Positions 59,427 to 64,000 of a stretch of DNA of 64,000 bases are shown one piece after another. The position numbers were made by a program, and so were the translations under genes. The number at the start of each line of letters is the position of its first letter. Position 1 is the stretch's first letter. This DNA comes from an uncultured Litoreibacter sp. (GTDB lineage: Bacteria; Pseudomonadota; Alphaproteobacteria; Rhodobacterales; Rhodobacteraceae). The stretch is taken from assembly GCF_947501785.1 (NCBI RefSeq), contig NZ_CANMXB010000001.1:3476501-3540500 (forward strand), written 5' to 3'. The notes below the pieces were generated by a model. That model worked only from the letters and a program-made list of their open reading frames with translations. It searched no databases and had not been told where the DNA came from.

Positions 59427-60355
59427 GCGTTGGCCAAGAGGGCGCGGGCCTGCGCGCAATCGGCGTCCATCTGGGCAATCAACGCGTCTAAGCTCTCGAA
59501 CTTTTCTTCACCGCGCAGGTAATCCACCAGCGCGACGGAAATATGTTCCCCATACAGATCCCCTTTGAAGTCAAAGAGATAGGTTTCGCAGTTTGGCTGG
59601 TTCTCACCAAACATCGGACGCACACCGATGGAGGCTGCCCCCTGGTAGCTGCCTTGATGCGGGCCGGTCAGAACGTCCACAAACACCGCATAGACGCCGA
59701 ACTTCGGCTGGTGCAGCCCGGTCGTGTCCTGGTTCGCGGTGGGGTAACCCAACTCGCGGCCACGCTGTTCGCCGGTGATCACCTTGCCCTCTATCCGGTG
59801 CCAGTGGCCCAGCATTTCGGCCGCGTCGCGCGGGTTTCCGTCAGTGAGTGCCTGGCGGATGTTGGTAGAGGACACCTGCTGCGCGCCCGTCTCGACTATG
59901 TCTGCGATTGTCACGCCGAAGCCGTGGTCATTGCCAAACTCCCTGAGCATCTGGGTGTTCCCAGCGCGTCCCTTGCCAAAGCAGAAATCCGCGCCGACCA
60001 CGACATGCGTCAGGCCAAGCCCCTGAGCGATGACGTCGCGGGCGAATTCTTCTGCGGTCAGACCGGATAGTGAGGCGTTGAAGTTTAGCTCATACAGGCG
60101 CTGGACCCCTAATTTTTCAAGTCGATTGGCCTTGGCTTCTGCGTTCATGAGCCGGAAGGGCGGAGCGTCGGGGGCGAAATATTCGCGGGGGTGCGGCTCG
60201 AATGTTACGATCCCCAACGGTGCTTCGGGGGCCGCCCGTCTGGCGATGTCGATCACGGCCTGATGGCCAATATGAACGCCGTCAAAATTGCCTATGGCAA
60301 CCGTGGCGCCGCGGTCTTCCGGGCTGACGAACTGATGGTCACGTATGATGCGCAT
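59423..60355 (-). CDS. ribF: Bifunctional riboflavin kinase / FAD synthetase
   Basis: Phosphorylates riboflavin and adenylates FMN. The 310-residue protein has the nucleotidyltransferase part with VAIGNFDGVHIGHQAVID (residues about 18-35) and FCFGKGRAGNTQML, followed by the riboflavin-kinase part with GYPTANQDT and the C-terminal YLRGEEKFESLDALIAQM. Length is typical. It is linked to ycgN by a four-base overlap and lies 48 bases downstream of the MaoC-like gene. Confidence 0.96.
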   Translation of the reverse strand: MRIIRDHQFVSPEDRGATVAIGNFDGVHIGHQAVIDIARRAAPEAPLGIVTFEPHPREYFAPDAPPFRLMNAEAKANRLEKLGVQRLYELNFNASLSGLTAEEFARDVIAQGLGLTHVVVGADFCFGKGRAGNTQMLREFGNDHGFGVTIADIVETGAQQVSSTNIRQALTDGNPRDAAEMLGHWHRIEGKVITGEQRGRELGYPTANQDTTGLHQPKFGVYAVFVDVLTGPHQGSYQGAASIGVRPMFGENQPNCETYLFDFKGDLYGEHISVALVDYLRGEEKFESLDALIAQMDADCAQARALLANA

Positions 60356-60403
60356 GGGGTTTGGGTAAACGCCCGCGCAATAGGGTGCAAGTCGAGGGTT
60401 CGA

Positions 60404-60859
60404 TTAATCGAATTTGCGCGAAGGGGCCAAGACCACGGCCTCCCCCTTTAGCACGTTTTTCCCGTCAACTTCGCAGCGGGTCATCATGGTCACTTTGCGT
60501 TTGGCGTGGTCGATGTCGGTCACCTCGACCTCTGCCATGACCATGTCGCCGGGGCGCACGGGTGCCATGAATTTGAGACTTTGACCAAGGTAGACTGTGC
60601 CATGGCCAGGAAGTTGTTCGCCAATAACGGCCGAAATCAACCCGGCGGTCAGCATGCCATGGGCGATGCGGCCTTCAAAAATTGTGTCTTGGGCGTAGTC
60701 GTCATCTAGATGCACCGGGTTTCGATCGGTGGAGACTTCGGCAAACAATTCGATATCGCGGTCGGTGACCTGCTTGCGCAGATGGCGTTTCATGCCGATC
60801 TCGATATCTTCGATGCAGATCGTTCCGCGGGGGAAATTGTCTCTGGCCGTATCGAGCAT
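60404..60859 (-). CDS. MaoC-like (R)-specific enoyl-CoA hydratase family protein
   Basis: A 151-residue hotdog-fold protein. FAEVSTDRNPVHLDDDYAQD carries the Asp and His of the hydratase 2 motif, and FEGRIAHGMLTAGLISAVIG the following helix. Predicted to hydrate enoyl-CoA or an analogous dehydratase reaction. The start at 60859 (MLDTARD) is chosen because AGAGGTG lies about 5-6 bases upstream; a TTG seven codons earlier would overlap it. Confidence 0.9.
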   Translation of the reverse strand: MLDTARDNFPRGTICIEDIEIGMKRHLRKQVTDRDIELFAEVSTDRNPVHLDDDYAQDTIFEGRIAHGMLTAGLISAVIGEQLPGHGTVYLGQSLKFMAPVRPGDMVMAEVEVTDIDHAKRKVTMMTRCEVDGKNVLKGEAVVLAPSRKFD

Positions 60860-60883
60860 CTCATCACCTCTAAGTAACAATCG

Positions 60884-60898
60884 GGCGCGATACGCGCC
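60884..60898. promoter_or_regulatory. Triloop hairpin ahead of the MaoC-like gene
   Basis: GGCGCG-ATA-CGCGCC is a perfect 6-bp stem with a three-base loop, between the HAD gene's end and the MaoC-like start. It may end the HAD transcript or act as an attenuator. Confidence 0.35.
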
Positions 60899-60951
60899 AA
60901 GTTTGAAACTTAATTACTTTGCAGATGCAGCAAAGTCCAGCGAAAAACGCG

Positions 60952-61824
60952 TTAGCTCAGCTTCCCAATTGTGTAGCGTGGGCTCACCATTTCCTTTTGA
61001 AGATAAGCGTTTAGCAGGTCGGGATCTGGGTGCCGGTCAGTTTTTGTTTCCGCCGCGGCAAGGCCGCCAGAGATGAAAAGGGAATCAAGGTCTTCGCCTT
61101 GCGCGCCCTGAATGTCGGTTAACACGCCGTCGCCGATACACAGGATACGGGCGTCAGACGTGGATTTCCCCAATGCGGCCAACCGGCGGCGGGCGAGGTC
61201 ATAAATTGGCGGGTGAGGCTTGCCGAAATAGAGGCTTTCGCCGCCCATCTCGGTGTAGAGCTGCGCCAGAGCACCGGCGCACCATTCGCGGTGCTCACCG
61301 CGATCCACAACAATGTCGGGATTGGCGCAGAGCAGCTTCATGCCCTTCTGCTTGGCATATAGGAAATCGGCGCGGTTTTCTTCCGGATCGGCCATGGGGT
61401 CAACCGGTCCGCAACAAATTATACCTTCGGCCTGCTGCAGGGGAACCTGTTGAATTTCCACCGGATTTTCGATGATATTCAGAGGGTCGAAGAAAGTTTG
61501 ATCGTGTGGCTGACCAATGAAGAACACTTTGGAGCCAACCGCGCCGCGATACATTGCGGCCCGCGCGCTGTCGCCCGAAGTGGCGATGTCGTCGTAGCTG
61601 TCAGCGGCGACACCGATCTTTTCAAGTTGTTTTGCAACCGACGCGCGGTGTCGCGGGGCGTTGGTTACGTAGATGACAGTGCCGCCGCTTTGACGGTATT
61701 TTCGCATCGCCTCAACGGCGCTTTCAAACGGGTCAACGCCGTTATGAATGCAGCCCCAAAGGTCCACAAACAGCGCGTCATATTGATCGGAAATCTCGGT
61801 TAACGCGTCGATGATCTGGGTCAT
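60952..61824 (-). CDS. TIGR01459-family HAD-like protein
   Basis: A 290-residue class IIA (NagD-like) HAD protein. The nucleophile segment is LFVDLWGCIHNGVDPF: Asp21 is present, but the residue two positions on, normally the general-acid aspartate, is Trp23. YVTNAPRHR gives motif II, YFGKPHPPIYDLA the lysine, and CIGDGVLTDIQGAQ the acidic motif. As I recall, this W is typical of the TIGR01459 family, so phosphatase activity by the usual mechanism is doubtful. The start at 61824 follows GAGGCC; an ATG at 61854 has no ribosome binding site. Confidence 0.9.
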   Translation of the reverse strand: MTQIIDALTEISDQYDALFVDLWGCIHNGVDPFESAVEAMRKYRQSGGTVIYVTNAPRHRASVAKQLEKIGVAADSYDDIATSGDSARAAMYRGAVGSKVFFIGQPHDQTFFDPLNIIENPVEIQQVPLQQAEGIICCGPVDPMADPEENRADFLYAKQKGMKLLCANPDIVVDRGEHREWCAGALAQLYTEMGGESLYFGKPHPPIYDLARRRLAALGKSTSDARILCIGDGVLTDIQGAQGEDLDSLFISGGLAAAETKTDRHPDPDLLNAYLQKEMVSPRYTIGKLS

Positions 61825-61930
61825 TGGGGCCTCATGAACGGGAGTTTCGGGCATGCATTTTGCGTCTACGCCACCTGTACACCGATTTGTGCACAGATGG
61901 AGCGGGGAATGTGGTTGGCGCCGGGAGCTC

Positions 61931-62479
61931 TTACCGCCACTTGATTGAACAGCCCATTGACGGGATTTGGTCCTGCGGACCTTTTCCGGTTTCGGCGACC
62001 TGACGCATGGCGTGAACGAGTTCCCGCGTGCGCCCGTCAGGGTTGCCCATGGCCGCGCTGTCGAGGCGGCCCCGATATTGCAGGCCGCCATGCGCGTTGA
62101 AACCAAAGAAGTCGGGCGTACATACCGCGCCGTAGGCCTTGCCGACCGCCTGGCCCTCGTCGACGAGATAAGGAAACGTCCAGCCGCTGAGTTTGGCGTA
62201 AGCTTTCATGTTCGCGGGGCTGTCGGCGGGCACCAAGTCGTAGTCATTGGACATGATTGCGACCGTATTGACGCCTGTTGCTTTGAGTTCGTTTGTGTCC
62301 TCTGCCAATCGCTCGGCAATGGCCTGCACATATGGGCAATGGTTGCACAAAAAGGCGACTAGAAGCCCCTTGGGCCCCATCGCCGACTGCAATGTGGTGG
62401 TCTGGCCGTCCGGGTCCTGAAGTTCAAAATCAGGGGCGGGCCAGTCGAAATTACAAACAGGTGTGTCGAGTAAAGCCAC
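61931..62479 (-). CDS. Thioredoxin-fold (AhpC/TSA-like) redox protein
   Basis: A 182-residue cytoplasmic protein of the peroxiredoxin/thioredoxin-like superfamily. The redox motif CNHCPY lies in LVAFLCNHCPYVQAIAERLA, and AVCTPDFFGFNAHGGLQYRG is the cis-proline region followed by the family's typical strand. These proteins are usually annotated as thioredoxin family or redoxin domain; reductase or peroxidase activity cannot be decided. ATG at 62479 is the first start. It lies 107 bases upstream of the HAD gene on the same strand. Confidence 0.87.
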   Translation of the reverse strand: MALLDTPVCNFDWPAPDFELQDPDGQTTTLQSAMGPKGLLVAFLCNHCPYVQAIAERLAEDTNELKATGVNTVAIMSNDYDLVPADSPANMKAYAKLSGWTFPYLVDEGQAVGKAYGAVCTPDFFGFNAHGGLQYRGRLDSAAMGNPDGRTRELVHAMRQVAETGKGPQDQIPSMGCSIKWR

Positions 62480-62489
62480 GTGGGATGCC

Positions 62490-62520
62490 TCCGGCGGGGA
62501 TATTTTCAGACATGGGAAGG
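62490..62520 (+). repeat. ATATTTTC tail element
   Basis: CTCCGGCGGGGATATTTTCA followed by GACATGGGAAGG is a weaker member of the AT-tail family seen at 22673-22702 and 55315-55340. It lies between ppaC's end and the thioredoxin-like gene's start, without a strong hairpin. Confidence 0.35.
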
Positions 62521-62572
62521 AATGGGCGCGCCTCCTTCCAAACGCGGGCGCGCGTTATCCTAAATATTGGGA

Positions 62573-63490
62573 TTACACCTTCAGGTTCGGGATAATCTGC
62601 TTCTTGCGGCTCATGATGCCGGGCAGCACCACAGTGTCACCCGATACTGTCGCGCCGAAACTGGCTTCTGCCACACGTTTGGATAGGTCGTTGGGGACCA
62701 GCATGGTGGCTTCTTCATTAAGAATGTCGACCACGAAGAGAAGGACCTCGTTCACCTTGTCCTCACCGGCAACATTCGGCATGGCGGCCATCAGCTCGGC
62801 CTTGCGGTCCAACACCATTTTGGGCGAGGTGGTTTCCAACACAGAGACCCGGAATTTGACGCCGTCAACCTCGTATTCCTTGCTGTCCATGCGCAGCAAT
62901 TCGGCTTCAGAGAAGGCCGAGACGTCGGATTTGGCCGCAAACATTTCTGCCGCGTAGTCCGCAATGTCGATATTCAGGTCCGCAGCGAGGCTTTCGGCCA
63001 GTTTGCGGTCAGTATCGGTGGTGGTGGGTGACCGGAATTCCAGCGTGTCTGACAGAATGCAGCTGAGCATCGCGCCTTTGATGTTGTCGGGCATATGGCC
63101 CGCGTGATGGCCCATCAGATCGTGCATGATCGTCGCGGTGCAGGCCAGCGGGCGGATCGTGATGTCGATGGGACCGGCTGTTTCCAATCCGCCGACCAGC
63201 TTGTGGTGGTCGATGATGGCTTGAATGTCGGCGCTGTTGATATTGTCGGGCAGCTCGGCCGGGTTGTTGGTGTCGACCACGATGCAGGTCTGTTCATTGT
63301 CCAACGTGTCGATAATGGTGGGTTTGGCGAGGTTCCAGCGGTCCAGCACGAAGGCGGCTTCGGTGTTGGGCTCGCCCAGCAGCACGGCGCGCGCGTCGCC
63401 GCCCTGGTGGTTCAGGAACCATTCCCAGATCAGCGGCGAGCCGGTTGAGTCGGTGTCTGGAGATTTATGGCCAAAAATAAGCGTCGTCAT
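62573..63490 (-). CDS. ppaC: Manganese-dependent inorganic pyrophosphatase (family II)
   Basis: Hydrolyses pyrophosphate. The 305-residue DHH-family enzyme has IFGHKSPDTDS at residues 6-15 supplying metal ligands, VVDTNNPAELP with another aspartate, the DHH motif in AIIDHHKLVGG, and the C-terminal DHHA2 domain with SRKKQIIPNLKV at the end. Length and motif order are normal. It diverges from the small transcription unit at 63572. Confidence 0.96.
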   Translation of the reverse strand: MTTLIFGHKSPDTDSTGSPLIWEWFLNHQGGDARAVLLGEPNTEAAFVLDRWNLAKPTIIDTLDNEQTCIVVDTNNPAELPDNINSADIQAIIDHHKLVGGLETAGPIDITIRPLACTATIMHDLMGHHAGHMPDNIKGAMLSCILSDTLEFRSPTTTDTDRKLAESLAADLNIDIADYAAEMFAAKSDVSAFSEAELLRMDSKEYEVDGVKFRVSVLETTSPKMVLDRKAELMAAMPNVAGEDKVNEVLLFVVDILNEEATMLVPNDLSKRVAEASFGATVSGDTVVLPGIMSRKKQIIPNLKV

Positions 63491-63571
63491 GAGCGTGTTG
63501 TCCTGCGCGAAAGGGGTGATTTTGGCGGTCTTATAGGTGGCGGCGGGGGGGATGTCACCCTTGCGCGCATT

Positions 63572-63600
63572 TTGACAGGCAGCGGTTGGGGTGCTATGAG
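63572..63600 (+). promoter_or_regulatory. Strong sigma-70-type promoter of the pentapeptide unit
   Basis: TTGACA at 63572-63577 and TATGAG at 63595-63600 are separated by 17 bases. The -35 box is a perfect match. The predicted start is near 63606-63608, about 23 bases before the first tiny ORF. It is one of the best promoter matches in the window. Confidence 0.7.
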
Positions 63601-63629
63601 GAAGTCACCTACCAAGGAGGACTCTGTCG

Positions 63630-63647
63630 ATGGACAAACTGGCCTAA
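63630..63647 (+). CDS. Pentapeptide ORF 1, MDKLA
   Basis: ATG GAC AAA CTG GCC TAA encodes Met-Asp-Lys-Leu-Ala. AAGGAGG, a full-strength Shine-Dalgarno sequence, lies nine bases upstream (63614-63620). It is the first potential coding element after a promoter at 63572-63600. Such a short ORF could be a regulatory leader, a ribosome-stalling element, or a decoy; no known leader peptide matches. Translation is predicted only from the ribosome binding site and position. Confidence 0.5.
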   Translation: MDKLA

Positions 63648-63706
63648 TTTCCCGCCATCCCGACTGCGTTTTTTCGCGTTACCTTTGCTGTAGGAGCACA
63701 CTGACA

Positions 63707-63724
63707 ATGGACAAGACCGGCTGA
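63707..63724 (+). CDS. Pentapeptide ORF 2, MDKTG
   Basis: ATG GAC AAG ACC GGC TGA encodes Met-Asp-Lys-Thr-Gly. TAGGAG lies about ten bases upstream (63691-63696). It shares the first eight bases, ATGGACAA, and the encoded Met-Asp-Lys with ORF 1, 77 bases upstream. The stop's last base is the first base of the terminator stem at 63724-63740, so translation would end on the hairpin. Confidence 0.5.
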   Translation: MDKTG

Positions 63725-63740
63725 CCCCGTTTCGGGGTTT
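63724..63740 (+). terminator. Terminator of the pentapeptide unit
   Basis: ACCCC-GTTTC-GGGGT is a 5-bp stem followed by TT and GACAC; the stem begins on the last base of the second stop codon. With the promoter it delimits a transcript of about 135 bases. A second short hairpin, GCACG-TTTGC-CGTGC, follows near 63750-63764. The T-tail is short, so read-through into the next gene is possible. Confidence 0.55.
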
Positions 63741-63797
63741 GACACGTTCGCACGTTTGCCGTGCGGCCCCAACTCACTCCATTTGAAAGGGTATGAC

Positions 63798-63971
63798 ATG
63801 CCCAAATCTTCCAAGAAAACCCGCTCTGGCGGGACCAAAAAAGCTGTCCAACACTCCGCGAAACCGGGCTTTGACGCCGCGCAGTTGAAGGTCGGGAAAG
63901 GCGGCGGCAAGTCGCAACAGGCCTATGGCGGCAAACCTCCACGATTCCCCGGACGCACCGGCGGGCGTTGA
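63798..63971 (+). CDS. 57-residue basic protein of unknown function
   Basis: The sequence is lysine- and glycine-rich: it starts MPKSSKKTRSGGTKKAVQ and ends PPRFPGRTGGR. It has no predicted fold, signal or metal motif and is probably disordered, and could bind nucleic acid. GAAAGGG lies about ten bases upstream of the ATG at 63798. It may be expressed from the 63572 promoter by read-through. Codon use is normal for the window. Confidence 0.6.
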   Translation: MPKSSKKTRSGGTKKAVQHSAKPGFDAAQLKVGKGGGKSQQAYGGKPPRFPGRTGGR

Positions 63972-64000
63972 GCCTGCGGGCCCCGCCACGCGTGACATGC

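Follow-up and report, generated by a model that had tools for sequence, protein, structure and literature searches.

Two tandem five-codon ORFs preceding a polybasic protein gene in Rhodobacteraceae: a candidate translation-sensing leader

Organization of the locus

The window analyzed here, a stretch of 64,000 nucleotides, carries near its right end a compact unit in which two very short open reading frames precede a gene for a small, strongly basic protein, all on the plus strand. The unit begins with a sigma-70-like promoter motif, TTGACA-N17-TATGAG, at 63572 to 63600 (TTGACA at 63572-63577, a 17-nt spacer, and TATGAG at 63595-63600). An earlier sequence-only reading of this DNA had described this promoter as near perfect; the exact match is indeed there, as the only one in the whole window, but a stricter consensus scan that demands a T at the end of the -10 element does not call it. 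When up to two mismatches are allowed, the motif occurs at two sites in the window against 1.84 expected, and by itself it proves little. Among 51 distinct copies of the leader, a TTGA lies 56 to 60 nt 5' of the first ORF in 48, and the -10 element is loosely conserved.

The first ORF (ORF1, ATGGACAAACTGGCCTAA, coding for MDKLA*) occupies 63630 to 63647 and is preceded by the Shine-Dalgarno sequence (SD) AAGGAGG at 63614-63620. A C-rich linker (63648 to 63706) separates it from the second one (ORF2, ATGGACAAGACCGGCTGA, MDKTG*, at 63707 to 63724), whose SD is TAGGAG at 63691-63696. The pattern ATGGACAARN6TRA has two occurrences in the window, both of them at this locus, against 0.02 expected. 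A hairpin that we call P3, GACCCCG-TTT-CGGGGTT, abuts the ORF2 stop at 63723 to 63739, with its onset inside the stop codon. Downstream come a probable SD, GAAAGGG (63785 to 63791), and the gene for a polybasic protein of 57 amino acids (63798 to 63971, MPK...PPRFPGRTGGR). The promoter, both ORFs and their SDs, the onset of the hairpin and the 57-residue basic ORF thus lie where the sequence-only reading had placed them.

A longer GC-rich hairpin, a possible terminator, comes next; within the window it contributes its 5' arm and its loop (63980 to 64000), the 3' arm being beyond the end. Its T tail is short, and a simple terminator scan of this genome does not call it. In this genome, this hairpin is followed by a DUF2161 gene. 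The left, divergent neighbor is a gene with DHH and DHHA2 domains, for which we retain the label ppaC given to it in the earlier reading.

Distribution of the unit

We searched for further copies with a pattern derived from the SD, start context and stop of ORF2 (GGAG-N4-CTGACAATGGAC-N9-TRA), which matched 6 of 394 genomes of the family. All six have a second SD-led five-codon ORF and a TTGAC site upstream and the basic protein downstream. A covariance model of ORF2 plus the hairpin (R1), run over the same 394 genomes, added 16 genomes accepted after inspection (G050 and G343 among them with scores just above E 0.001), which brings the carriers to 22 of 394. R1 matches up to E 1 were found in 223 of the 394 genomes, the great majority of them weak. 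The start of ppaC is less than 500 nt away in 21 of the 22 carriers and about 1.2 kb away in G313. In the Rhodobacteraceae, the unit consists of a promoter-like site, two SD-led five-codon ORFs, a hairpin at the second stop and a polybasic protein of 53 to 65 amino acids. We also inspected eight loci where the model matched without ppaC. The matches in G277, G007, G035, G303 and G219 look like chance, and those in G250, G300 and G061, which have a single SD-led mini-ORF before an unrelated gene, were excluded from the unit count.

In an order-wide sample, matches at E <=1e-4 were found in 18 of 196 genomes, all 18 from the same family; two genomes of the same genus as the one analyzed here, G168 and G439, had no match to the covariance model in this sample. 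In G168, ppaC directly adjoins a DUF2161-like gene, and the unit is absent. A GTDB-based scan with the ORF2 pattern (one genome per species, 84,980 species) returned 43 stretches, of which 42 contain the unit; the stretch L100 was dropped as a chance match. The 42 come from Rhodobacteraceae, Paracoccaceae or unresolved Rhodobacterales/Alphaproteobacteria, and their genera include Yoonia, Octadecabacter, Tateyamaria, Ruegeria, Boseongicola, Flavimaricola, Vannielia, Tabrizicola, Loktanella and others. We recognized ppaC just upstream in 37 of the pattern stretches, and in L090 through tblastn; L091, L106 and L110 are truncated upstream. The Ruegeria stretch L076 carries the unit with its basic gene in 8 kb of sequence without ppaC and, judged by this gene order, the unit seems to have moved there as a whole. 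Another Ruegeria stretch with the unit is L106, one of those truncated upstream.

The distribution across the family is patchy. The earlier reading had held that relatives lacking the ORFs would count against it; most relatives, including G168, are without the whole unit, and the ORFs of the carriers are mostly intact. Where the unit is present in the Rhodobacterales, the two ORFs, their ribosome binding sites and the hairpin are kept with few exceptions. A phage or plasmid origin was considered and rejected, as blastn of positions 63560-63980 of the window against phage and plasmid collections gave no match and the ORF2 pattern had none in viral contigs.

Conservation and drift of the five-codon ORFs

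From the 64 loci with the unit (42 + 22, partly from the same genomes), both ORFs were obtained in 58. Removal of identical copies left 51 distinct ones, of which 41 are less than 80% alike (the diverged set); related genomes are counted separately in these sets, which overstates the independence of the copies. Truncation at a stretch end removed L081, L091, L106 and L110 from the two-ORF set. Deviant second ORFs were seen in G198, with nine codons, and in G157, which is without its stop.

For most copies, ORF1 lies outside the search pattern. It has five sense codons in 47 of the 51 distinct copies (3, 6, 11 and 13 codons in the others), and in 37 of the 41 diverged copies, against a null value of 0.025 for a first stop at codon 6. 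These 37 ORFs display 36 different strings from codon 3 to the stop, so that length is kept where sequence is not. The start is ATG in 48 copies and GTG in 3, and the stop is TGA in 24, TAA in 22 and TAG in 5. The pattern of ORF2 recurs in 42 further Rhodobacterales stretches. ORF2 itself is five codons long in 50 of the 51 copies, a count that is partly by construction because the pattern used for the named set already fixed the position of the stop, the Asp codon and the spacing of the SD. Asp follows the initial Met in 37 of 47 ORF1 and 48 of 50 ORF2, with positions 3 to 5 varying. With this variation in codons 3 to 5 and no run of codons for a single amino acid, we discarded an amino-acid-specific attenuator of the trp or his type.

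The start region is more constrained than the peptides. GGAG is placed exactly 10 nt 5' of the start in 44 of 51 copies for ORF1 and 48 of 51 for ORF2. As a control, long ORFs called mechanically in this DNA supplied 84 starts with an SD; their SD spacing peaks at 7 to 9 nt, and none of the 84 has a start region ending in TGACA. The two ORFs had been proposed to be a duplicated element, an idea that gains support from the tandem match of both to one covariance model in 15 of 56 loci (E <=1e-5). In the copy L055 (G329, positions 1444 and 1521), both mini-ORFs code for three residues (MEK and MDK), the pair having changed length together.

RNA helices and the linker

We looked for conserved pairing by permuting the partners among copies. 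The strongest signal comes from a helix, P1, which joins a 5' arm at 63608 to 63620, near the predicted 5' end of the transcript, to a 3' arm at 63681 to 63695, just before ORF2. Over the 41 diverged copies, the 5' arm (22 to 9 nt before ORF1) pairs better with the pre-ORF2 segment of its own copy than with those of the others (z -7.3, 0 of 20,000 permutations), against z +1.0 for a control with the 5' part of the linker. When 234 window pairs were tested over 34 copies, P1 came out on top (z -6.9), followed by P2 (z -4.3), a hairpin inside the linker at about 63665-63678 that covaries among copies and is weak in this sequence; the next pair reached z -2.8, and positive values went up to +3, which sets the level of noise. 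The strength of P1 is moderate, with its own partner ranking first for 5 of 41 arms and within the best 14 for 30 of 41, and it is stronger than with shuffled 3' arms in 39 of 41. P1 covers at least 2 bases of the ORF1 SD in 35 of 41 copies and reaches the ORF2 SD in 29 of 41, so the 5' arm can be described as an anti-SD for ORF2 followed by the SD of ORF1, and the 3' arm as an anti-SD for ORF1 extending into the SD of ORF2. Thermodynamic ensemble folding weakly supports P1, with a predicted pairing of the ORF1 SD to the linker of 0.49 against 0.32 in shuffled sequences and of the ORF2 SD of 0.68 against 0.69. The single-sequence fold of the whole leader stretch was no better than that of shuffles (z -0.03), and among the window pairs tested none formed a covarying helix between the leader and the SD of the basic gene.

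P3 is present in 46 of 51 copies; the corresponding frequency is 22% in shuffles and 8% for the sequence at the ORF1 stop. Its base pairs differ among copies (CCCCG/CGGGG, CGCC/GGCG, CCCGC/GCGGG). The earlier reading had taken this hairpin for a terminator. This part is not supported: only three T follow the core here, the 8 nt after it have a mean of 1.9 T (38 copies), and the terminator scan does not call it.

The linker ranges from 39 to 76 nt in the 51 copies, in all three phases, and in the 41 diverged copies it is made of 42% C and 25% G. C exceeds G in 39 of the 41, with a mean skew of 0.18 against 0.04 in 80 control stretches. Rfam gave no matches in the region 60000-64000 of the window up to E 5 and no gathering matches in five of the related loci. 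In L049 (G172), the interval from ORF2 to the basic gene contains a tandem array of GACTTTGCGCGGGCCGTGCCGCGTGGACCC-like repeats.

The polybasic protein gene

The encoded proteins have 53 to 65 amino acids (44 measured). The aligned family (31 members) shows an MP start and a PPRFPGRxGGR-like end; L080 and L098, outside the alignment, start with MA. The composition (18% P, 18% R, 13% G and 10% K) suggests a disordered protein, and the computed pI is 11 to 12 (45 proteins). The median pN/pS over 13 close pairs is 0.19, the highest value shown being 0.57, so we can consider this a real gene, which by the substitution pattern of its sequences is under purifying selection. None of the 31 basic proteins matched Pfam, no homologue was found in NCBIfam (5 members scanned) or PDB, and PHROG gave one match, at E 0.037, in 1 of the 31.

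The gene and the leader go together. A profile of the basic protein run over 150 genomes of the family found it in 8, all 8 with the leader by coordinates, and a whole basic gene accompanies 49 of the 51 leader copies; in the other two, the gene is cut by the end of the stretch (L086) or truncated (L077). L077, an Octadecabacter MAG, has its basic gene cut to 22 codons and lacks P3, with both ORFs kept; P3 is absent from both Octadecabacter copies. The distance from the ORF2 stop to the start of the basic gene is 50 to 87 nt in 44 copies and 137 nt in L049. The GC-rich hairpin after the gene has a mean score of 31.2 against 15.5 for one shuffle each (44 copies). Another hairpin, within the first part of the basic gene, seemed conserved on visual inspection and was dropped, as it had little advantage over synonymous-codon shuffles (mean z -0.56, n 35).

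Proposed function and alternatives

Both ORFs, their SDs, P1, P2, P3 and the link to the basic gene are conserved in our comparison. Conserved short ORFs with ribosome binding sites stand before a gene, with no obvious second promoter or terminator in between, and the locus would be the 5' leader of a transcription unit that encodes the basic protein. We consider it probable, at roughly 60%, that the pair of ORFs acts as a translation-sensing leader controlling this gene. A dual leader for the basic protein was one of the options of the sequence-only reading, and it is the one favored by the conservation of the hairpin and of each ORF with its ribosome binding site, and by the presence of the protein only together with the leader in the eight carriers of the sample searched.

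We infer that the ORFs are translated and that the basic gene is their target, together with the sign of the response and the role of Rho. The two SD-led five-codon ORFs would serve as the sensors of translation. Closure of P1, between the 5' end and the segment before ORF2, would hide both ribosome binding sites, an early ribosome on ORF1 would hold P1 open and make ORF2 usable, and a ribosome finishing ORF2 would melt P3. Given how short the ORFs are and how much their peptides vary, the readout would be the loading, leaving or stalling of ribosomes and not a particular peptide or amino acid. The C-rich linker suggests Rho as the means of this readout. When translation is fluent, ribosomes would leave the mini-ORFs at once, the linker would be naked and transcription would be cut short, probably by Rho. 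A failure of initiation, with closure of P1, or a stall of ribosomes on the mini-ORFs would instead mask the linker, and the basic protein would be made. This exact version, with the basic protein off under fluent translation and on when ribosomes are scarce or stalled, is offered tentatively, its sign being favored because of the model for the duf1127_1 leader of Sinorhizobium meliloti (see below) and the C-rich linker.

The opposite sign would result from a translational cascade, in which ORF1 makes ORF2 accessible by opening P1. Ribosomes that terminate on ORF2 would in turn open P3 and, through re-initiation or local unfolding, increase translation of the basic gene, so that the protein is made when translation is good. 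The order and fixed geometry of ORF1, P1, ORF2 and P3 fit such a cascade, but the distance from the ORF2 stop to the basic gene, with its range of 50 to 87 nt and the 137 nt of L049, and the missing conserved pairing to the SD of that gene speak against it, and we regard it as unlikely. Less likely still is that the reading frames are incidental and that the duplicated GGAG...CTGACAATGGAC motif serves as a binding site for a small RNA or a CsrA-like protein. GGA motifs do resemble CsrA sites, and CTGACAATGGAC is stricter than an ordinary start region, as the 84 control starts indicate; however, a mere site does not explain why ORF1 keeps a stop at a fixed distance while switching between TGA, TAA and TAG, or why the start is ATG or GTG. 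The search for the CsrA family (PF02599), which found it in 3 of 14 control genomes, gave no match in this genome, and we rejected a CsrA target on this basis.

The other option of the sequence-only reading, a small RNA ending at P3 with the basic gene as an independent neighbor, fares worst among these. It would account for the promoter-like site in front of the unit and for the hairpin conserved behind ORF2, and since the hairpin after the basic gene is also weak-tailed, short T tails alone do not exclude P3 as a terminator. On the other hand, P3 is short and without a U tract, the basic gene was never found without the leader in the 150 genomes, and Ruegeria L076 has both together in a stretch without ppaC; we therefore consider this explanation improbable. 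The translation-sensing leader is our preferred reading.

Comparison with known systems

Many known leader peptides sense through particular codons or through the sequence of the nascent chain. Other very short ORFs are the pentapeptide minigene of 23S rRNA (E-peptide) and the bar minigenes of phage lambda, which also have five or fewer codons with an SD and act through the peptide or through peptidyl-tRNA drop-off. In our unit, unlike in these minigenes, the peptide is not conserved and the ORFs are paired in a structured leader. What evolution maintains here is the ORF length, the start context, a stop and the RNA pairing, whereas the peptide drifts; this pattern suggests that ribosome loading is sensed directly.

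The closest parallel is the duf1127_1 leader of S. meliloti, where the ribosome binding site of an upstream ORF (uORF) pairs with C-rich codons, expression rises when initiation is impaired, and Rho-dependent attenuation is proposed and argued with experiments (PMC12218461). Both leaders are alphaproteobacterial, have a uORF ribosome binding site able to pair with C-rich RNA and precede a gene for a small arginine-rich protein. In both, this protein is the target, the RNA and not the peptide sequence matters and ribosome availability or translation inhibition is sensed, as reported for duf1127_1 (PMC12218461) and as proposed here for our unit. The S. meliloti leader has one longer uORF with the attenuation element within its codons, no SD-to-SD helix is described in the parts of that study consulted, and the target is a DUF1127 protein (PMC12218461), whereas our unit has two five-codon ORFs, a P1 helix that spans both SDs and a basic protein without a Pfam match. 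The toiL uORF of the Escherichia coli topAI-yjhQ operon senses several translation stresses through stalled ribosomes and RNA refolding, with Rho involved (PMC12121999). It resembles the leader proposed here in being a uORF that senses translation stress and in the use of Rho, but it is described as a single uORF with a structure that occludes the ribosome binding site of the downstream gene (PMC12121999), for which we found no corresponding covariation.

The proposed mode of action is of a known kind, as it resembles that of uORF leaders. The leader itself falls outside the described examples that we considered, with its two uORFs, fixed five-codon length, SD cross-pairing, lack of a DUF1127 target and undescribed target family, and our searches of the open-access literature found no description of such a twin five-codon ORF element. 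It is conceivable, although we hold this broader claim with some doubt, that it represents a new class of leader RNA, where a pair of five-codon ORFs, interchangeable and acting independently of their peptides, and a cross-wired SD/anti-SD helix form a two-step meter of ribosome loading that controls a new, probably disordered polybasic family that may act on RNA or ribosomes. As a compact element present in named cultured strains and linked to an undescribed protein family, the unit lends itself as a clean natural system for studying how bacteria gauge their translation capacity.

Lone mini-ORFs at other loci

The three excluded model matches with a single mini-ORF deserve a brief description, with the neighboring genes named by eye. 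In L065 (G300), an SD-led MDKTA* lies at about 1514-1531, between the end of a tuf-like gene and a gene similar to hexapeptide acetyltransferases, about 40 nt before the latter; it could be a lone leader of the same style or a chance occurrence. L058 (G250) has, at about 1521-1532, AGGAGCGCCCTGACA-ATGGAGCGTTAA-ATG, a mini-ORF of three residues with the same start context that directly precedes a MoxR-like ATPase gene. In L066 (G061), the model matches 1501-1553 of the locus on the minus strand, where an SD-led ATGAACATCTAA (MNI*) with the same CTGACA start context is found about 80 nt before a reductase-like gene. Together, the sequences of these three loci hint at lone mini-ORF leaders elsewhere.
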